Source: Helicobacteraceae bacterium
Lineage (GTDB): Bacteria; Campylobacterota; Campylobacteria; Campylobacterales; Sulfurimonadaceae
Assembly: GCA_021163845.1 (NCBI GenBank)
Contig: JAGGTH010000031.1
Location: 1-38,984 of the forward strand
Direction: 5' to 3'
Length of the DNA stretch: 38,984 bases
The notes beneath the pieces are model-generated. The model saw nothing but the letters and a program-made list of their open reading frames with translations. It did no database searches and was not told the DNA's origin. Every line of letters begins with the position of its first letter. Position 1 is the stretch's first letter. Positions 20,225 to 37,201 of the stretch are shown in pieces. The translations under genes and the position numbers were made by a program.

Positions 20225-20824
20225 TTAAAACTTTTTCTCTAGGTAGAAACAGTTATAGTTTGTACCACCTTTTTCAACACTATTGACTAGTCCAAAAATA
20301 CTTGAACGGTGCTTGATAAGAAAGCCTAATGTCGTATCTTCGAGCTCTTTGAATCTCAAAGCACGACCTAGATCAAAATCGAGTGTAAAATCCAAATAAT
20401 TAAGATATTTTGAGGTTTTATCACCCTCTTCTACCGCTTCAATATACTCTGCATAAAGGGTTGAGCTCACGTACGATCCCCCTTCGCCAAAGCCTAGACG
20501 AAAACGCTGAGACCACAGATCAAGATTGTAAAATAATTTGATATAAAGAGTTCCTTCATAAACATTTTGTTTCATACTATCTTCATCAAAATAAGCGACC
20601 CCTCCATACACATACAAATCTAAAGGCAAATCATAGATATCTTTTGCCAAAAGGTATCCAACATCCAAAGCTGTTACTTTTAAATTATTGGGATGTTCTT
20701 TAATATGTCCACCCAAGATCTCACCAAAATCACTATCAACAGCCATACCATGTGCTACGCGCACAGAATAATCCTGCGATGCACTCAAGTGCAAAAACAA
20801 GAACAGTAATAAAATATACTTCAA
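20225..20824 (-). CDS. Predicted small outer-membrane beta-barrel protein
   Basis: The 199-residue protein starts at TTG (AGGG lies 6 bases upstream). It has a signal peptide (MKYILLLFLFLHLSA) and then alternating aromatic strands ending in Phe (NCFYLEKKF), as outer-membrane barrels do. The segment IKHRSSIFGLVNSVEKGGTN near the C-terminus recalls the His-Ser region of PagL-type lipid A deacylases, but the match is too weak for a call. It lies 21 bases after the short hpf and 10 bases before hemJ. Function unknown. Confidence 0.65.
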   Translation of the reverse strand: MKYILLLFLFLHLSASQDYSVRVAHGMAVDSDFGEILGGHIKEHPNNLKVTALDVGYLLAKDIYDLPLDLYVYGGVAYFDEDSMKQNVYEGTLYIKLFYNLDLWSQRFRLGFGEGGSYVSSTLYAEYIEAVEEGDKTSKYLNYLDFTLDFDLGRALRFKELEDTTLGFLIKHRSSIFGLVNSVEKGGTNYNCFYLEKKF

Positions 20825-22255: not shown

Positions 22256-23446
22256 TTATTTAAGTTTTATGGTTTTAGAGGTGATAAAAAACTTCTGAGA
22301 CCAGATAGGCTCTTTGAGCTTCAGTAAGGAGTGTACTTCATCATTTACCAAACGATACGAAAGTATAACCTCTACCCTATTTGCCCCTGGGACATTTTCT
22401 ACTTTTAAAATTCTTTTTCCATTTGCTGGAATACTCATATCTTTAGAAGCCTCTACAGCTAAGTGTGGGATCGTAGGCTTCTCTCTTTTATCTGTGTAGT
22501 GTCGTGTCAATGAGAGTGTTTTCGTATCCAAAATAGAAGAGTCTTTTTTATAGATCACATCTACAACTAACTCTCTAGAGCCAAACCCACTTGGGATGTT
22601 ATGAGGTTGTGGATTAGAGATGGAGAGTACTGTTTCCTCTTTTTTCTGCCAGATCGCAAGTCTTAGAGCGTCCTTCCAAAGTGTTTCAGTATGAGCACCT
22701 ATAAAGCCGTGACTACGTATATCACGTTGCTTCGCTTTTCCATTATCTATTTTATAAGTTGAAGCGTAGCCTTTTCTTTTCTCCCCCATATGACAATCGA
22801 CACAGCCCTTCTCACCTTTTTTATATTCACTATGCATATCTGTAAAAACAAAGTCGCTTACTGATCTATCATTTGCATGACATACAAAACAAAGTTGGTC
22901 AGATTTTTCATCCATAAAATCTCTATGTTCTACTTTATGATAAGGAGATCTTGCATCTTCATATGGTCCTGTCATCACTCCTGATTTCGTCCATTCTATA
23001 CGGTTAATTCCACGAAAACTTTCATCTCTATCTGCATGTATCTTGTCAATATTATGACAAACAACACAGTTGATCCCCTCATCAATCGCATCACTTTGCA
23101 AGGCTTTGTTCACCTTTGAATCTTTATCCAAATTCATGACAGCCATGATCTCATAATCCATACCGGTGGATGTAACAGAGATTCTTGGATTGTGACATGT
23201 TGCACATTGTACCTTGACACCATTGAGACTTTTTCTTGTTTTTCTACTTACATACTCAATAGAAGCACGAAAATATTCATCATTTTGGTAATGAGATTTT
23301 GCATGCCACGAGGACTCCCAATCTTTTACAAGATGAACATGACATGCTTTACATTGCGAAGAATCTTTAAAACGATCTCCTATTTCAGTCACTTTTGCAC
23401 CCATTAAAGATGCAACCATCACAAGTGATATAAAAATATACTTCAT
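22256..23446 (-). CDS. Periplasmic pentahaem c-type cytochrome
   Basis: The 396-residue protein has a signal peptide (MKYIFISLVMVASLMGA) and five CxxCH haem motifs: CKACH, CATCH, CVVCH, CFVCH and CVDCH. These fall in the first 220 residues, as in the cytochrome c554 family. The C-terminal part (about 240-396) is beta-rich and contains NPQPHNIPSGFGSREL, similar to a block in the pentahaem lipoprotein at 35540. The electron donor and acceptor are not evident. The ATG follows the argF stop directly, with GGGAG inside argF as ribosome-binding site. A cytochrome behind a biosynthetic gene suggests shared transcription and not shared function. Confidence 0.87.
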   Translation of the reverse strand: MKYIFISLVMVASLMGAKVTEIGDRFKDSSQCKACHVHLVKDWESSWHAKSHYQNDEYFRASIEYVSRKTRKSLNGVKVQCATCHNPRISVTSTGMDYEIMAVMNLDKDSKVNKALQSDAIDEGINCVVCHNIDKIHADRDESFRGINRIEWTKSGVMTGPYEDARSPYHKVEHRDFMDEKSDQLCFVCHANDRSVSDFVFTDMHSEYKKGEKGCVDCHMGEKRKGYASTYKIDNGKAKQRDIRSHGFIGAHTETLWKDALRLAIWQKKEETVLSISNPQPHNIPSGFGSRELVVDVIYKKDSSILDTKTLSLTRHYTDKREKPTIPHLAVEASKDMSIPANGKRILKVENVPGANRVEVILSYRLVNDEVHSLLKLKEPIWSQKFFITSKTIKLK

Positions 23447-25476: not shown

Positions 25477-26040
25477 ATGAATATACAGATTTCCCAAGAA
25501 GCAAATTTACCCTCAAGATTTGGCGATTTTAAAGTTAAATCTTTTAAAGAAAAAGACAAAGAACATCTCGTTATCTACACAGACCATATGGAAAAAACAC
25601 CAATTGTTAGAGTCCATTCTGAGTGCCTCACAGGGGATGCTATAGGGAGCCTTAAATGTGACTGCCGTGACCAACTCGAATATGCGTTGAGTATGATTGC
25701 AAAGACAGGAGGTATGGTGATATATCTGCGTCAAGAGGGAAGAAATATCGGGTTATTTAATAAGATCAATGCCTATGCACTCCAAGACAAGGGGCTTAAC
25801 ACTATCGAAGCCAATCATCAGCTTGGATTTGCAGCGGATGAACGTAGCTATGAGATAGTCACCACCATCTTACACCATTTTAATATTCATGCAATCAAAC
25901 TTCTCACCAATAATCCAAATAAAATAAGCTCTATCTCTGATGTGAAGATTGTCGAGCGTATCCCAATAATAATGAAGTCCAATAAATTCAATGAGGGGTA
26001 TATCAATGTTAAAAAAGATGAAATGGGACATCTTTTTTAG
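25477..26040 (+). CDS. ribA: GTP cyclohydrolase II
   Basis: The 187-residue enzyme opens the GTP ring in the first step of riboflavin synthesis. The zinc site is within VHSECLTGDAIGSLKCDC (three Cys). The nucleotide-binding block is YLRQEGRNIGL. It is the stand-alone RibA form and not the RibBA fusion. The ribosome-binding site is poor. Its 3' end overlaps the next gene by 35 bases, counting the start at 26006. Confidence 0.93.
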   Translation: MNIQISQEANLPSRFGDFKVKSFKEKDKEHLVIYTDHMEKTPIVRVHSECLTGDAIGSLKCDCRDQLEYALSMIAKTGGMVIYLRQEGRNIGLFNKINAYALQDKGLNTIEANHQLGFAADERSYEIVTTILHHFNIHAIKLLTNNPNKISSISDVKIVERIPIIMKSNKFNEGYINVKKDEMGHLF

Positions 26041-28696
26041 ATCTCTTCTCCTAGCAGCACTCTTGAGCATAAGCTCTCTTTACGCTTCGAGTGCCGTTGT
26101 CCCACACGATCAAGAATATTTTCTACATGATGAAAAAGAATTTTCTCTCATCTATACCCAAGAAAACCTTCCCTACGCCGTGCACACAGCGCAAGTGGCA
26201 GGGGAACTCACTAAGGAGTATACAGATTTTTTTTCATGGGAACTTGATGAAAAACTTTATATAGGGCTCATCTCAAGTCACAACCAGATTCCAAACGGCT
26301 TTTCTTCACAATGGCCAAAGAATCGCCAGATAAATTATATAGGCGGGACAGAGCTTATCGATCAGTTTAGCTCTATTTCATGGCTTGATACGCTCCTCTA
26401 CCATGAAAGCGCACACAACTACCAAATGAATGTCAAAGGGAGTAAATTTTCTCAACTTCTACATTCCTTATTTGGAAATGGAAACGTTTTACTCCCCTAC
26501 CTTACAGTTCCAAATATTATGGAAAACCCTTTCATGTTAGAGGGAAATGCTGTGCTCAACGAATCATGGCATAAAAATGGTGGACGCCTCTATAATGGAA
26601 GATATAAAGCACAAACTATCCTCCAAGCAAAAGCAGACAATATTAAAGCAAAAAATGTATACAACTATTCACTTACATTTCCTTACTATAGTGATATGTG
26701 GTATATCCAAGGTGGTTTTTATAACCTTTTTCTTGCGCAAAAGTACGGTATCAAAAATCTTAATAGCTATTTCAAGTACAACTCTGAAAAATTTTTTTGG
26801 CCACTTTTTACCAATAGAAGTATGTATGAAGCTATAGGGATCTCTTTTGAGGATTCACTCAATGCCTTTGCTGATGAGTATAAAAAGCTAGGGGAGCACT
26901 TTAGCTCTCAACAAGGGGAAAGCATACTAACTTCTCAGTTTTTCTATCCACTCAACAGCGATACTGAGGAGATATTCTTTCTCACTAATGAGAGTGGACA
27001 TCGATCTCCTGAACTGATCAGGCTTAACAAAAGAACGAAAGAATTCACACGAGAGAGAGATTCTTGGCGTACAGGAAAAGTGATCAAAGAGAAAAATAAG
27101 TTTTATACGCAGGCAAGCGCATATACCTCAGTGTTTCAGATCACACAAGGTCTCTATGATTCGGAGGGCTCTATCAAAAAAGGCTCTTCTTCTCAAATGG
27201 TGCAAGGTTATCTGCAGGACAAGCGCCCTGTTTATTTTGATATCAATAGCTCTTTTATGCAAGCCCAGCTCTATCTCGGAGAAGACTTTTATGATCAAGT
27301 CAACTCCTCAGTATTTATAGATAAAGAGGACTCGATCTACTATTTTAAGCAAAAAGGTAAAACAAGAACCCTCTATAAAAACAAGCAAGCTCTTTTCTCT
27401 TTCAAAGGCTATTATGGGATCATAAGCGATGTCGATAGCAAGGGAGTTATCTATTTTATAGCCAACTCAGCACTTGGCTCTACCCTTTATCGTTGGGATG
27501 GCAATGAGTTCTCACGCGCTTCATTAGCCGACAATGTCGTAGAGGTCAAACTTCTTAATGATGATGAGGCCTTATTTGCTTGTATCAGTGATAAAGATTA
27601 CTACTATACCCTAGATGCACTTGTATCCTCCAAGCAAGTCCCCTTTGAGAGCAAGCTCTTTTTTGAGGAGATGGAGTATTATAAAAAAGAGAAAAAATTT
27701 CATAGTGATCTGCAACCAACACTAGAGCATAGCTATCATCCACTCAAGGAGATTGGATATAGTGGTACAGATCTCTCTTTAGGAACTACACAAGAGAGTG
27801 TTATTGCAAATGTCGCACTCAACTTTGCTGATCCACTTAATCAAAATAGCGCTTCTATCTATTTTTTACATGATGAAAACAACACCTCGCTCGCAGGGGT
27901 AAGTTACACCAATGAGCAATATCTCCTCTCTTATTCTTTGGGAGTTTATCAGGTACTTGCCAATGAAAAAACGATCGATACACGAGACAACGGAGTGATG
28001 CTCAAAGCACTTTTACCGCTCTATAAATCTGGATACAATAAAGTGAGCTTCTCTACAAACTTTTATCAAGATTATGAGCTCAAAACACGAGAATCACTTA
28101 ACTTTACTTTAGGTTTTTTACAAGCATACCAATATGGACTCAGTCTCTACCCTAACTATCATAATCAAGCGAAAATCTATTATTCTATGCTCAAAGATGG
28201 AGATATCTACGGATTTGATTACACATACTCTCATGACCTTCCCTACCAATTTTACTTAGGCCTTGAACTCAAAAAATCGATCTCAAATGCCAAAGATGGA
28301 AATTTTGATAGTGGAGTCAAGATTACGAATACATCAAGTACTCTCTTTCAAGATTCTAGTGATATTGTGATACCTAGTCTAAGTGCAAGTTCTTATGTCA
28401 AAGAGACTGGATATGTAGGTTTGAGCATCCATAAGGTTATTGACCTTTCAAGCTACTGGTTCACTTTTCCTCTCTCACTCCAAAGGGAGGCACTCTATGC
28501 CAAACATAGATACTATGAAATTTTGGGCTTCAGTGATACGCTCTACAAGATGCACGAGAGTAGTGTCGGACTCACTCTTTATAGTGTATTTTTTAATAAG
28601 AACATCGTGCCTATCAGCCTTGAATATATCTATAACGATGCAGATTTTTTACAAGAGAATCATAAAATACGTGCATTCATCAATTTTGAATTTTAA
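26006..28696 (+). CDS. Predicted outer-membrane metallopeptidase: peptidase, propeller and barrel domains
   Basis: The protein has 896 residues from the ATG at 26006, chosen for GAGGGG 8 bases upstream over an ATG 15 bases earlier. It has a signal sequence (FFRSLLLAALLSISSLYA). Residues about 35-300 carry a zinc peptidase motif HESAH (133-137) with Glu179 in MLEGNAVLNES as a likely third ligand, a gluzincin pattern. Residues about 310-590 have repeated short strands like a beta-propeller (FLTNESGHRSPELIRLNKR, IISDVDSKGVIYFI). The last 300 residues alternate as a beta-barrel and end in FINFEF, typical of outer-membrane proteins. The domain limits are by eye. It starts inside ribA, but the function appears unrelated. 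Confidence 0.72.
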   Translation: MLKKMKWDIFFRSLLLAALLSISSLYASSAVVPHDQEYFLHDEKEFSLIYTQENLPYAVHTAQVAGELTKEYTDFFSWELDEKLYIGLISSHNQIPNGFSSQWPKNRQINYIGGTELIDQFSSISWLDTLLYHESAHNYQMNVKGSKFSQLLHSLFGNGNVLLPYLTVPNIMENPFMLEGNAVLNESWHKNGGRLYNGRYKAQTILQAKADNIKAKNVYNYSLTFPYYSDMWYIQGGFYNLFLAQKYGIKNLNSYFKYNSEKFFWPLFTNRSMYEAIGISFEDSLNAFADEYKKLGEHFSSQQGESILTSQFFYPLNSDTEEIFFLTNESGHRSPELIRLNKRTKEFTRERDSWRTGKVIKEKNKFYTQASAYTSVFQITQGLYDSEGSIKKGSSSQMVQGYLQDKRPVYFDINSSFMQAQLYLGEDFYDQVNSSVFIDKEDSIYYFKQKGKTRTLYKNKQALFSFKGYYGIISDVDSKGVIYFIANSALGSTLYRWDGNEFSRASLADNVVEVKLLNDDEALFACISDKDYYYTLDALVSSKQVPFESKLFFEEMEYYKKEKKFHSDLQPTLEHSYHPLKEIGYSGTDLSLGTTQESVIANVALNFADPLNQNSASIYFLHDENNTSLAGVSYTNEQYLLSYSLGVYQVLANEKTIDTRDNGVMLKALLPLYKSGYNKVSFSTNFYQDYELKTRESLNFTLGFLQAYQYGLSLYPNYHNQAKIYYSMLKDGDIYGFDYTYSHDLPYQFYLGLELKKSISNAKDGNFDSGVKITNTSSTLFQDSSDIVIPSLSASSYVKETGYVGLSIHKVIDLSSYWFTFPLSLQREALYAKHRYYEILGFSDTLYKMHESSVGLTLYSVFFNKNIVPISLEYIYNDADFLQENHKIRAFINFEF

Positions 28697-29148
28697 GACA
28701 AAGATTTTGCAAATTTTGAATCACTAAGAGCCATCACTCTCCGCTCTGAAATACTCATCATTTTCAATAGTTCCTGTGTATTTTGCTGAAGTTCTGCATA
28801 ATAGAGTTTCGCTTTATCAAGCTCTAGCATACTCACTTTATTCAGCTTCAACACCTTAGAAAAGAGCCCATTTTTAGGCTTAGTAAAGAATATTTCATAA
28901 ATTTTATAATACTGCTCATGCCATTTCCCATGCAACTGTTCTATCGCTTCATAAAATTGAGAACCAAGTATTACCCGCAGATGTTTTTCTTCATCATATA
29001 TCCATTGACCAAAAGCACATTCTCTTTTAGAAACAGATGTAGGATCTACAATTGTTTTGCCAGACACTAAAGCACTAATCTTTTGCATTTGAACTTCATG
29101 ATACTTTCTTGCTGTTTGAATTGAGTCGAGTGTTTGTTGTTTTGTCAT
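28693..29148 (-). CDS. CZB (chemoreceptor zinc-binding) domain protein
   Basis: The 151-residue protein has the zinc-binding pattern of CZB domains: His17, Cys44 in ECAFGQW, and His73 and His77 in LHGKWHEQY. CZB domains occur at the ends of chemoreceptors and respond to zinc or to oxidants through the Cys. Here it is a free-standing protein without a receptor. It diverges from the PAS protein gene with 91 bases between starts, and its stop codon overlaps that of the metallopeptidase gene. A role in redox or energy taxis is inferred from the pair. Confidence 0.78.
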   Translation of the reverse strand: MTKQQTLDSIQTARKYHEVQMQKISALVSGKTIVDPTSVSKRECAFGQWIYDEEKHLRVILGSQFYEAIEQLHGKWHEQYYKIYEIFFTKPKNGLFSKVLKLNKVSMLELDKAKLYYAELQQNTQELLKMMSISERRVMALSDSKFAKSLS

Positions 29149-29211: not shown

Positions 29212-29239
29212 TGTTTAATTTCGATATTGAAGGAACGTG

Positions 29240-29803
29240 ATGACAAAGCCAACACCAAAAGATAATGAAATACAACTCAGCACAAAAAGATATATAGTTT
29301 CTAAGACAGATCCTAAAGGGATCATAGAGTACGGAAATGATTATTTTGTCGAGATCTCAGGCTACACAGAAGCGGAACTCATTGGCAAACCTCACAGTAT
29401 TGTACGTCACCCAGATATGCCAAAAGTGGTCTTTAAGATGATGTGGGACCGTATCAATCGCGCCAAAAACATTATGGCGGTGGTCAAAAATATGGCAAAA
29501 GATGGAAGCTACTACTGGGTTATCACCGAGTTTGAACCGCGGGTAGACCCTATCTCGAACGACATAATCTCCCATACCGCTTTTAGAAAAGCTGCTCCAA
29601 AAAAAGCGGTCGAGGTGATGGAACCGATCTATCAAAAACTTCTCGAGATAGAAAAAGATGGCGGTGTAGAAGCAAGTGAAAAATATCTTCGCGGATTTTT
29701 AGAGGAGAAGAGAACAACCTATGATGAATTTGTAGACGAGCTCGTAGGAAATACAGGTCTATTCAAAATCTTTTTCAAAACTATGAAAAAAATGTTTTCC
29801 TAA
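29240..29803 (+). CDS. Aer/CetB-type PAS domain protein
   Basis: The 187-residue protein is mostly a PAS domain. It contains GNDYFVEISGYTEAELIGKPHSIVRHPDMPKVVFKMMWD, the hallmark of aerotaxis receptor Aer and CetB, which bind FAD. It continues with MAKDGSYYWVITEF. Without receptor or membrane domains it would act in the cytoplasm with a partner, as CetB does with CetA in Campylobacter. The ATG at 29240 is chosen for its 5-base spacing from AAGGA over the GTG just upstream. The C-terminal helices (about 135-187) are charged. Confidence 0.86.
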   Translation: MTKPTPKDNEIQLSTKRYIVSKTDPKGIIEYGNDYFVEISGYTEAELIGKPHSIVRHPDMPKVVFKMMWDRINRAKNIMAVVKNMAKDGSYYWVITEFEPRVDPISNDIISHTAFRKAAPKKAVEVMEPIYQKLLEIEKDGGVEASEKYLRGFLEEKRTTYDEFVDELVGNTGLFKIFFKTMKKMFS

Positions 29804-33474: not shown

Positions 33475-35439
33475 ATGAAAAGAATCATTCCATTATCACT
33501 CATAACTCTTACTTATTTAGGGGCAAATGAAATCACTCTCGAGCAGATCGGTGTGGAAGCAAGTGCACTTACAGAGGTAAGCCAAAACGCGAAAACTTCA
33601 GCAGATATCGCAGAAGCGCTAAGCAAATCAGTACCAAGTATCGATATGAGCCGCCGTAGCGGTATTGCAAACGATATCTTTATCCGTGGACAAAAACGTG
33701 ACAATATCTCTATAGAGATAGACGGTACAAAAGTATGTGGTGCATGTCCAAACAGAATGGATCCACCAGTTTCTCACGTACTCGCAAGCCAGATCGAAGA
33801 TATCAAAGTGATCGAAGGCCCGTATGATGTAGAGACTTTTGGTACTATGAGCGGCGGGCTGAAGATCAAAACAAAACAGCCAAGCGCTACACCTACAGGG
33901 GAGCTTAACTTTGGTTTTGGAAGCTGGGGCTATAATAAAGTAGGCACGACTCTTAGCGGTGGAAACGACACAGTGCGTGTGCTGCTAAGTGCTTCGACTG
34001 AGAGTAGTGATCAGTATGAGGATGGAGATGGAAATACGCTTGCAGAGCAAACAAAGCTCAATGCACCTGCAGGGAATCAGTATCAACCACAATATGAAGA
34101 TATGAAAGCGTATCAGAAAAAAAGTGTCAATGCAAAAATGTTTGTCAATGTCACCCAAGATCAAGAACTACAACTCTCTTTTACACAAAATAAGTCAGAT
34201 GACATTTTGTATGCGAACTCAGCAATGGATGCGATCTATGATGATTCAGACATCTATAGCATTGCATATAATATTAAAGATATGACAGAGTCTTATAAAA
34301 ACGTCAACTTACAGTATTATTACTCCAGAGTTGTGCACCCAATGAGTACAGAATATAGAAAAGTAGCTCTAATGGATCCTACAAAAAATACGACCGCCCA
34401 ACTAAAGACAACGATGCAGGGTGTAAAACTTAAAAATGATTTTGATTTTGATGGACTCAAACTCCTTATAGGGCTTGATGGAAGTAAAAGAACTTGGGAT
34501 GGTTTTTATAAAAACAATGTCAGTGGTATGGTTATGCCTGTTGCAAGTATTGATAACGCTACAACAAAAAATATGGCACTCTTTACAAAACTAGAAAAGT
34601 CATTTGGGGGCTTAGATCTCTCTTTTGGCGCGCGCTATGATACTACGAAGATCACGAATGAAGCTACCCACAACGAACCAGATTACAATAGCCTTAGTGC
34701 AAATCTTTTAACTACATACAATCTCTCTCAAACGAATAAAATCTTTTTAGGTTTTGGTCAAGCGTACCGTGTACCAGATGGGAGAGAACTCTATTTTACC
34801 AAAGGTGGAAACCTCAGCGGAAACCCACAACTTGATCAAACAAGAAACCAAGAAATTGATTTAGGATACGAGCTCAAAAACGATTTTATGAAATTTAAAA
34901 TCAAAGGCTTCTATTCTATGCTTGAGAATTATATTTATCTTCAAAAAGGTGGAAGTTTTCAAAATATCGATGCAACTATCTACGGGGCAGAACTTAGCTC
35001 TTCTGTATACGCAACAGATATGCTTAGCATCGATCTTAGTGCATCGTATAAAGTAGGTGAAAAAGATGAAGCACTTGCAGGACAAACCGACAAAGACCTC
35101 GCAGATATCGCACCACTGCGCGGAAAACTTGGGGTAACGTATGAGTACATGACAAACTCTTTAGCATCTTTGGATGTACAATATTCTGACAAGTGGGACA
35201 AATATGACAGTGACAACGGTGAGCAAGCACTCGACTCTTGGACAACACTCAATGCAAAAGTAAAACACGCATTTAACAAGCATATTGATCTTACACTCGG
35301 CGTAAATAATATTATGGATGAGACCTATGCACAATCAAATACCTATGTAGATCTCACCCTTTTAGCAGCAGGTGCTGAAACAATGCTCCTTAACGAACCT
35401 GGTCGCTACGTCTACACAAATTTAGATATTAAATTTTAA
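33475..35439 (+). CDS. TonB-dependent copper receptor (OprC/NosA type)
   Basis: The 654-residue outer-membrane receptor has a signal peptide (MKRIIPLSLITLTYLGA), a plug with SADIAEALSKSVPSIDMSR and KVIEGPYDVETFG, and a 22-strand-type barrel ending in LDIKF. The block KVCGACPNRMDPP has Cys91 and Met95 (C-x3-M), and HPM at His288 and Met290 supplies an H-x-M. This is the copper-site arrangement known from Pseudomonas OprC (C-x3-M and H-x-M). NosA, which supports nitrous oxide reductase assembly, belongs to the same family. Copper uptake is therefore the best call. No TonB gene is nearby. Confidence 0.85.
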   Translation: MKRIIPLSLITLTYLGANEITLEQIGVEASALTEVSQNAKTSADIAEALSKSVPSIDMSRRSGIANDIFIRGQKRDNISIEIDGTKVCGACPNRMDPPVSHVLASQIEDIKVIEGPYDVETFGTMSGGLKIKTKQPSATPTGELNFGFGSWGYNKVGTTLSGGNDTVRVLLSASTESSDQYEDGDGNTLAEQTKLNAPAGNQYQPQYEDMKAYQKKSVNAKMFVNVTQDQELQLSFTQNKSDDILYANSAMDAIYDDSDIYSIAYNIKDMTESYKNVNLQYYYSRVVHPMSTEYRKVALMDPTKNTTAQLKTTMQGVKLKNDFDFDGLKLLIGLDGSKRTWDGFYKNNVSGMVMPVASIDNATTKNMALFTKLEKSFGGLDLSFGARYDTTKITNEATHNEPDYNSLSANLLTTYNLSQTNKIFLGFGQAYRVPDGRELYFTKGGNLSGNPQLDQTRNQEIDLGYELKNDFMKFKIKGFYSMLENYIYLQKGGSFQNIDATIYGAELSSSVYATDMLSIDLSASYKVGEKDEALAGQTDKDLADIAPLRGKLGVTYEYMTNSLASLDVQYSDKWDKYDSDNGEQALDSWTTLNAKVKHAFNKHIDLTLGVNNIMDETYAQSNTYVDLTLLAAGAETMLLNEPGRYVYTNLDIKF

Positions 35440-35539: not shown

Positions 35540-37201
35540 ATGCATTTAAAACCACTCTTTTTGACAACTCTTGTGCTTGTTTTATTTCTTGGTTGTGGCA
35601 ATTCAGATACTCCGCAAGATCAAACATCCTCACAAGATCTCAATATACCTATAACGATAGAAAATCGTGCTTTTACATCCACACATTTCTCAGGCTCAGA
35701 CAACTGTGCAGCTTGTCATAATGGAATTACAGATACTCATGGAGAAGATGTCTCGATAGAGAGTGCTTGGTCGGCAACGATGATGGCAAATTCTGCCAAA
35801 GATCCACTCTGGAAGGCAAAAGTGGTCTCAGAGATCAAACGCAATCCACACCTAGAAGATGTGATCAATGATAAATGTAGCAAGTGCCACGCACCTATGG
35901 CAAACCATGAAGCACGCTCTGCGCAAGAGGAGATCAAGATATTTGATGATGGGTTTTTAAATAGCACAAATCCCCATTATGATGAAACAATGAATGGAGT
36001 GAGCTGTACCCTTTGCCATCAAGTAAAAGAGGTAGCAGAACTAGGAACACTCGCGGGATTTTCAGGCAACTACTCTATCGGATCTGATCGTATTGTTTAT
36101 GGGCAGTATAATAATGTCGCCACCCAACCGATGATAGGACAAGTCAACTACACTCCTCAATTTGGCGCTCATATCAGCCAATCCAAAATGTGTGCGACCT
36201 GCCACAATCTCAAAACTCCTTATGTTAATGCAGATGGTATTGTCTTGAGTGATACGCCTGAGAGTGAGTTTCCTGAACAGATGCCTTACAGTGAATGGGA
36301 GCACAGTGAATTTGCCACTACACAAAGCTGTCAAGATTGTCATATGCAACGTGCCGAAGGTGTGATCATCTCCAACCGACCTACATGGCTCAACACACAA
36401 AGAGGTAACTTTGCAAAGCACACCTTTGTAGGTGGCAATGCCTTGATGCTCGATATATTAAACAACAACAAAACGAGCTTAGGTGTACCAAGTACGACCG
36501 ACTTTAGCAAAACGCTTTCAAAAACAACAGAGATATTAGAGAGTGCCGCAGATATTCATATAGCAAATAATGGGATGATAGAGAATACTCTTTACATTGA
36601 TGTCACTATCTCAAGCAATACAGGGCATAAGCTTCCTACGAGTTTCCCGTCAAGAAGAGCGTTTGTTCATTTTATACTCTACGATACAAATGGCAATATT
36701 CTGTTTGAATCAGGAAAAAGCAACAACGATGGAAGCATAAGCGGTGCAGATGCTGACACAAACATTCATAGCTATGAACCACATTACAACATCATTACAT
36801 CCCAAGATCAAGTACAAATTTATGAAGCTGTGATGCACAATAGTGATAATCAAGTCACCTACACACTCCTCAGGGCCGCAAGCTACGTCAAAGACAACCG
36901 TATCTTACCAAGAGGCTTTGACAAAGCAACTGCACCAAGTGATATCGCAGTTCAAGGTGAAGCACGCAATGATGTGAATTTTGTAGGTGGAAGTGATACG
37001 ATCAGCTATAATATAGACACCACCAACTTCACATCCACGCCTGCGCGCGTAGAAGTTGCACTTCGCTACCAAACACTTAGCTATCCATTTGCCCAAGATC
37101 TTTTTAGCGAAGAGACAAATGAATCAATGAGCTTTGAAGGTATGTATGATGCTTCGCAAATGAAGACGAGTACCATTACATCCCAAGCTCTTGAGCTCTA
37201 A
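35540..37201 (+). CDS. Pentahaem c-type cytochrome lipoprotein
   Basis: The 553-residue protein has a lipobox LFLGC (Cys19) and five CxxCH motifs: CAACH, CSKCH, CTLCH, CATCH and CQDCH, all before residue 275. The C-terminal half is beta-rich. A SNTGHKLPTSFPSRRAF block matches HNIPSGFGSREL in the pentahaem cytochrome at 22256, so the two share architecture. The lipobox suggests a membrane-anchored electron carrier on the periplasmic side or cell surface. It has an AAAGGA ribosome-binding site and its own promoter downstream of the copper receptor. The last codons form part of a direct repeat found again beyond the toxin-antitoxin pair. Confidence 0.85.
   Translation: MHLKPLFLTTLVLVLFLGCGNSDTPQDQTSSQDLNIPITIENRAFTSTHFSGSDNCAACHNGITDTHGEDVSIESAWSATMMANSAKDPLWKAKVVSEIKRNPHLEDVINDKCSKCHAPMANHEARSAQEEIKIFDDGFLNSTNPHYDETMNGVSCTLCHQVKEVAELGTLAGFSGNYSIGSDRIVYGQYNNVATQPMIGQVNYTPQFGAHISQSKMCATCHNLKTPYVNADGIVLSDTPESEFPEQMPYSEWEHSEFATTQSCQDCHMQRAEGVIISNRPTWLNTQRGNFAKHTFVGGNALMLDILNNNKTSLGVPSTTDFSKTLSKTTEILESAADIHIANNGMIENTLYIDVTISSNTGHKLPTSFPSRRAFVHFILYDTNGNILFESGKSNNDGSISGADADTNIHSYEPHYNIITSQDQVQIYEAVMHNSDNQVTYTLLRAASYVKDNRILPRGFDKATAPSDIAVQGEARNDVNFVGGSDTISYNIDTTNFTSTPARVEVALRYQTLSYPFAQDLFSEETNESMSFEGMYDASQMKTSTITSQALEL

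Follow-up and report, generated by a model that had tools for sequence, protein, structure and literature searches.

The window analysed here, a stretch of 38,984 nucleotides, comes from a marine bacterium of the sulfur-oxidising type and carries on its forward strand, at 26006-28696, a gene encoding a single chain of three parts, whose features are collected in Table 1. Inspection of the sequence shows a GAGGGG at 25993-25998 that is well placed for the start at 26006, and an ATG further upstream, at 25991, is a possible alternative start. The 5′ end of the gene runs into ribA (25477-26040), whose product matches GTP_cyclohydro2 with an E-value of 1e-56. This overlap had been reported in an earlier sequence-only reading of the locus, together with the gene at 26006-28696, and both are confirmed here, the frame being open for 896 residues. 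At the other end, a convergent gene encoding a CZB domain (28693-29148, reverse strand) abuts the 3′ end, and beyond it lie a gene with a PAS domain (29237-29803, forward strand) and then rsmG. Since the same genome also encodes a separate TolB (E 5.6e-70) and two other, ordinary Omp85 proteins, the three-part protein is additional to these and replaces none of them.

Table 1. Features of the gene for the three-part protein, with positions counted from the first letter of the window.
Feature	Position	Strand	Basis or assignment
Whole gene	26006..28696	+	896 aa plus stop; open ORF; full-length homologues exist
Overlap with ribA	26006..26040	+	35 bases shared with the end of ribA
Signal peptide region, residues 1-27	26006..26086	+	hydrophobic stretch; cleavage near LYA/SS judged by eye
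Gluzincin-like zinc peptidase domain, residues 28-305	26087..26920	+	models, fold matches, profile match to PF13485-bearing relatives
HESAH, residues 133-137	26402..26416	+	predicted: two zinc ligands and general base
Glu179 in EGNAVLNES	26540..26542	+	probable third zinc ligand; conserved
Tyr233 in YxxGG	26702..26704	+	probable transition-state tyrosine; conserved
TolB-like beta-propeller, residues 306-545	26921..27640	+	AlphaFold2; 21 strands predicted
16-stranded outer-membrane barrel, residues 575-896	27728..28693	+	AlphaFold2; fold matches
Barrel strand 11-12 loop	28310..28321	+	SGVK in the window; RG[VI] in the family
C-terminal FINFEF	28676..28693	+	probable barrel-assembly signal

Sequence searches of Pfam, NCBIfam and the PDB returned no significant match for the 896-residue protein, and searches with family profiles and family members yielded nothing usable, the best PDB hits (E 0.18 and 0.93) being at the level of chance. 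A full-chain AlphaFold2 model was built from an alignment of 77 family sequences, from which four short open-ended ORFs (L085, L088, L107, L108) had been left out, and it reached a mean pLDDT of 93.1 and a pTM of 0.92, with pLDDT under 50 in residues 1-27 only. In this model a mostly helical N-terminal domain is followed by a propeller and then by a C-terminal barrel. The sequence-only reading had proposed a zinc peptidase, a propeller-like middle and a barrel; structure prediction and fold comparison support each of the three, and the barrel on which that proposal depended is present in the model. A search of a viral fold library found no convincing match to the model. Full-length homologues in many independent assemblies refute the idea that a misassembly joined unrelated domains, or that the motif is fortuitous, and the chance of such an artefact is practically nil. 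The three-part chain is a real protein whose structure and key residues are well supported, and it is its function that we infer.

Residues from about 30 to 300 are mostly helical in the AlphaFold2 model, and the N-terminal domain modelled alone gave a pLDDT of 90.6. When this lone domain was compared with known structures, both the Foldseek and the VIA lists were led by M30, M1 and M9 enzymes: VIA aligned 229 residues with lugdulysin (M30, 7bb8) at Z 14.7 and an rmsd of 4.6, scored M1 aminopeptidases at Z values of about 12-13.5 and gave 12.9 for M9 collagenases. Judged by these comparisons, the modelled domain has the thermolysin-type fold of the gluzincins (clan MA). It shares with these enzymes (lugdulysin of M30, M1, M9 and the PF13485 group) the fold and an HExxH motif with a downstream Glu, and it differs from them in having no significant sequence match and in being fused to a propeller and a barrel; PF13485 (Peptidase_MA_2) failed to match the window protein even at E 10. 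Membership of the M1 family was rejected. M1 aminopeptidases are defined by a GxMEN motif and an HExxH-x18-E spacing, and in the window protein GxMEN is missing and 41 residues separate His137 and Glu179.

The residues of the predicted active site, HESAH at 133-137 and the downstream Glu at 179, lie where the sequence-only reading had placed them. Glu179 falls in a helix (175-187) of the AlphaFold2 model and was aligned by hhalign to the EGLATYxET of gammaproteobacterial relatives, and Tyr233 pairs in the alignment with a Tyr that all 12 such relatives share. The transition-state role of this tyrosine is presumed by analogy with M1 enzymes. In addition, the second of the lugdulysin entries is titled as an E242Q Y315F mutant, in keeping with catalytic roles for a Glu and a Tyr; by analogy, Tyr233 is a candidate counterpart of that Tyr. 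From the residue composition of the protein 0.026 HExxH motifs are expected; after shuffling, the motif occurred in 519 of 20000 sequences, and together with a downstream EGxA in 2 of 20000.

Conservation of these positions was assessed in two sets. H133, E134, H137, E179 and Y233 are identical in 25/25 near full-length homologues, a set that was gathered without a motif filter, includes the window protein and leaves out three fragments (L009, L010, L028), so that this count is free of the circularity of motif selection. H133, E134, H137 and Y233 are likewise identical in all 77 rows of the larger alignment, as is Glu179, although the search pattern determines the latter in part and the invariance of the EGNAV region is therefore partly circular, the rows having been selected on it. 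The HExxH motif is kept in every homologue covering the site, and the four residues singled out by the sequence-only reading, the three of HExxH and Glu179, are retained without exception in the smaller set. Across the family alignment, mean column identity is 0.60 in the peptidase domain, 0.56 in the propeller and 0.48 in the barrel, with 29, 8 and 3 invariant columns respectively; the search pattern sits in the peptidase domain and accounts for a few of its 29. Of the three parts, conservation is highest in the peptidase domain and lowest in the barrel. This ranking and the invariance of the five residues (25/25) argue against a non-catalytic scaffold, in which the HExxH fold would merely bind a partner or a metal. 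In dead enzymes at least one catalytic residue has usually been lost. We hold a scaffold to be very improbable, the point in its favour being that activity has been reported for none of the homologues found.

The 21 strands of the middle part fall within residues 308-538 of the AlphaFold2 model. VIA aligned 213 residues of this propeller with TolB (2w8b) at Z 13.9, over model residues 321-542. The resemblance to TolB is one of propeller fold; unlike TolB, a separate periplasmic protein, the propeller of the window protein is part of a larger chain, and this protein, having no match in NCBIfam, stays below the cut-off of the TolB model (TIGR02800).

The C-terminal part is predicted as 16 long barrel strands within residues 584-892. 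Its best VIA matches include BamA (Z 16.2, 282 residues aligned, rmsd 4.3), FhaC (Z 15.9), Sam50 (Z 15.8) and TamA, with other kinds of porin not far below (OccAB2 at Z 15.1, chitoporin at Z 14.3). At the level of sequence, the barrel was left unmatched by PF01103 at E 10, and profile-profile comparison of the barrel of the window's subfamily with BamA and TamA gave a signal no better than that of reversed controls. The same subfamily profile aligned weakly with the barrel of the gammaproteobacterial relatives, at E 0.038 over 290 columns (reversed, 0.25-0.28); because of this weakness, the link to Omp85 rests on the fold and on the full-length alignment described below. The modelled barrel of the subfamily is therefore Omp85-like by fold, and not by its own sequence. 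The loop between strands 11 and 12 is what we take to be the place of the L6 motif, which in Omp85 proteins reads (V/I)RG(F/Y). Among the 75 rows covering the loop, G is present in 74, V or I in 75 and R in 54. The terminal Phe, part of the sequence-only reading, is borne out by the FINFEF end and by its recurrence among the 71 genome_contigs homologues with a stop (60 Phe, 9 Leu, 1 Tyr, 1 Ile).

A more distant group of proteins connects these parts to known families. The family profile matches 29 of 369 gammaproteobacterial genomes, the centre genome included, and 12 of the distant relatives, 939-975 residues long, were extracted in full. All 12 carry HExxH (mostly HEYxH) and most also EGLATYxET. 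Aligned with the window's family, they match over 830 columns with a probability of 99.8 and an E-value of 3.3e-28, and the peptidase domains alone give E 7.1e-29. PF13485 is matched by 3 of the 12 gammaproteobacterial peptidase domains (best 2.3e-5) and DUF2268 by 2, both being zinc-protease models. In the case of the propeller, the PD40 repeat exceeds the Pfam cut-off in 8 of 10 relatives, and all 6 compared with NCBIfam match TolB (TIGR02800) at 7.6e-14 to 2.3e-26, each under the cut-off. In the case of the barrel, Omp85 is found below the cut-off in 4 of 10, a BamA model of NCBIfam is weakly matched by 3 of 6, and the barrel profile of these relatives matches Omp85 at E 7.1e-5 (reversed, 0.18-0.41; the BamA-TamA positive control, 9.5e-25). 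Four nearer relatives gave no match in NCBIfam. At the place of the L6 loop, the 12 sequences read LRGY in 9 cases, IRGY in 1 and LHGY in 2.

These observations bear on whether the protein is an assembly or translocation factor, with an insertase or pore of the Omp85 type formed by the barrel, and the propeller and peptidase processing clients in passage. The identity of the top barrel matches (BamA, FhaC, Sam50, TamA) speaks for such a role, as do the G[VI], mostly after R, at the L6 loop and the [LI][RH]GY found there in 12/12 gammaproteobacterial relatives. Against it stand the apparent lack of a POTRA domain, in whose position the model shows the peptidase and propeller, the standing of the barrel as the least conserved part, and the SGVK, in place of RG, in the window protein itself. 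On balance we consider an assembly factor unlikely.

The family was traced in 10 of 41 near-relative genomes; genus-wide it occurs in 30 of 135 genomes (20 of 79 among those of good quality) and phylum-wide in 20 of 397. The genome that holds the window is part of each count, and a few of the matches are fragments. Named relatives belong to Sulfurimonas, Sulfuricurvum and other Campylobacterota, as well as to marine Gammaproteobacteria, including Alcanivorax, Marinobacter, Aliivibrio and Catenovulum. Within Pseudomonadota, a match of more than 200 bits to the gammaproteobacterial profile occurs in 18 of 398 genomes, a threshold adopted since 394 of the 398 match the full profile, nearly all by cross-match to TolB; in a second draw, made from the record labelled Pedobacter, overlapping the first and searched with the peptidase profile, 17 of 299 genomes match. 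Searches of viral contigs and plasmids found no relatives. In a tree built by a quick method with a midpoint root, leaving out five truncated rows, the main gammaproteobacterial group (15 rows and one record labelled Pedobacter) is nested within the diversity of Campylobacterota, which suits lateral transfer between the classes without proving it. So patchy a presence in genus and phylum speaks against a core part in quality control and rather for an accessory task or one tied to certain conditions.

Gene neighbourhoods were compared across 81 loci, comprising 80 kept of 123 confirmed and the window, and no neighbour was found to recur through the family. The largest clusters of neighbours hold 12 of the 81 loci and are lineage-specific: one mixes proteins of sensory type that lie at varying distances, and the other is an antiporter-like gene directly upstream in one subclade. 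A function based on a partner was dropped for this reason. The sequence-only reading was right that the gene lies next to sensory genes, those for the CZB and PAS domains; they give no clue to function, as no neighbour recurs across the family. The absence of a conserved neighbour also provides no pointer to envelope biogenesis.

In an even-stranded barrel both ends face the periplasm. The even strand number, together with the precedent of PlpD, the best-studied fusion of an enzyme to Omp85, whose enzyme domain is located in the periplasm only (PMC11116518), would place the peptidase in the periplasm. The sequence-only reading had left periplasm and surface side by side; by barrel topology and by analogy with PlpD, the periplasm is far more likely. 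A surface peptidase, delivered with its propeller to the cell surface by the barrel and digesting external protein, would recall the 'type Vd' secretion once proposed for PlpD, in which an enzyme is likewise fused to an Omp85-like barrel, and a niche trait, for instance in the use of nutrients, would fit both the patchy occurrence and the likely transfer from class to class. We nevertheless judge it distinctly improbable: PlpD turned out to be periplasmic (PMC11116518), two tight domains of more than 500 residues with a confidently predicted relative placement (pTM 0.92) would be hard to pass through the barrel, and no partner secretion gene was found to recur in the neighbourhoods of the 81 loci.

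The propeller and barrel together correspond to an architecture already on record. Heinz and Lithgow (2014) described ten Omp85/TpsB subfamilies, among them an uncharacterised WD40-Omp85 subfamily with a TolB-like propeller, and accepted subfamilies without POTRA domains (PMC4104836). Their 'Metallo' Omp85 subfamily is based on another domain, PF00149 (PMC4104836). The metalloprotease and WD40-like subfamilies have since been called not well characterised (PMC11116518). Like WD40-Omp85, the window protein has a TolB-type propeller ahead of an Omp85-type 16-stranded barrel, in that subfamily without POTRA and here with none showing in the model; unlike that subfamily as published, it adds a gluzincin domain, the two groups being compared here by description only (PMC4104836). 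Section 10 of the same paper names no gluzincin in WD40-Omp85, and 'peptidase' occurs 0 times in its main text (PMC4104836). The remark of the sequence-only reading that it could name no characterised protein with this order is accordingly to be narrowed, since the propeller-barrel part had a name and it is the peptidase part that goes unmentioned in that main text; we found no description of a gluzincin-propeller-barrel protein in the open-licence literature. PlpD and the patatin-like Omp85 proteins also fuse an enzyme domain to an Omp85-type barrel, that of PlpD being held in the periplasm, and unlike PlpD, a lipase with one POTRA, the window protein has a peptidase and a propeller and no patatin domain (PMC11116518).

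We regard an outer-membrane-anchored periplasmic zinc peptidase acting on envelope proteins as modestly probable, and for it we infer the periplasmic side, the zinc, the catalysis, the role of the propeller and the class of substrate. The hydrophobic N-terminus and the aromatic C-terminal signal suggest that the chain would be exported by Sec and that the 16-stranded Omp85-like barrel at its C-terminus would be put into the outer membrane by BAM; the gluzincin and TolB-like propeller domains would remain folded below the membrane. His133, His137 and Glu179 would bind zinc, Glu134 would activate water and Tyr233 would stabilise the transition state. The propeller, rigidly set between enzyme and barrel, may present or gate substrates or dock a partner. 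Proteins lying against the inner face of that membrane would then be trimmed or degraded in the manner of BepA, which is soluble, here by a chain anchored in the membrane. BepA is a periplasmic zinc peptidase able to act on barrel proteins during their assembly (PMC8423444), and the likeness proposed for the three-part protein is an analogy of role, that of a periplasmic zinc metallopeptidase at the outer membrane; unlike BepA, which belongs to M48 and works beside BamA, it carries its own barrel. A bolder reading, which we think quite unlikely, is a single-chain triage machine in which the Omp85-type barrel captures or inserts clients, the TolB-like propeller serves as an adaptor and the zinc peptidase degrades or matures them. 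If true, one chain would do the separate jobs of BamA, of BamB or TolB, and of BepA.

The present analysis adds a probable enzyme to the WD40-like Omp85 architecture and names residues to mutate, and the relatives in named strains of Alcanivorax, Marinobacter and Aliivibrio open function and topology to direct testing. If the proposed proteolysis is true, a further enzyme class would have been built on an Omp85-like barrel, and the finding would bear on the policing of proteins in the outer membrane of bacteria other than Enterobacteria.

Two further copies of the peptidase-propeller-barrel gene depart from its full-length form (see table). At locus L010, a signal-peptide-like start is fused directly to the final 47 residues of the family's barrel, and this short ORF is probably the remnant, or scar, of a large in-frame deletion in the gene. 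The copy in genome G877 is split over three consecutive matches, without a single continuous open frame, and looks like either a decaying gene or the product of frameshift errors.

Features and loci of the window and of homologue-bearing genomes
Feature	Position	Strand	Remark
Exported protein, 199 residues	window 20225-20824	-	
Multihaem cytochrome gene 1	window 22256-23446	-	genes 1 and 2 taken together match MtrC/MtrF-like and other cytochrome c models
Multihaem cytochrome gene 2	window 35540-37201	+	as for gene 1
TonB-dependent receptor gene	window 33475-35439		precedes cytochrome gene 2
ORF, 70 residues	L010:1435-1647 (G010:C8:187077-187211)		same-genus genome
Broken family gene copy	G877:C57:16120-18749		one genus member
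Antiporter-linked loci (n=12)	L065, L070, L079, L080, L082, L083, L084, L087, L089, L091, L096, L100		

Within the window, the small exported protein returned no match in a Pfam search, and its sequence, judged by eye, resembles a small barrel of the lipid A deacylase type.

The family copy L104, whose record bears the title Helicobacter pylori PMSS1 MAG, has an Arcobacteraceae copy as its tree sister. The copy L071, from a record titled Pedobacter sp., clusters with Gammaproteobacteria, and the neighbours of its genome drawn from the genome collection are Pseudomonadota. Both records look mislabelled or mixed.

In one Campylobacterota subclade, an antiporter-like gene lies immediately upstream of the family gene. 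The majority of the loci concerned also have a penicillin-binding protein 2-like gene facing the family gene (both neighbours named by eye).
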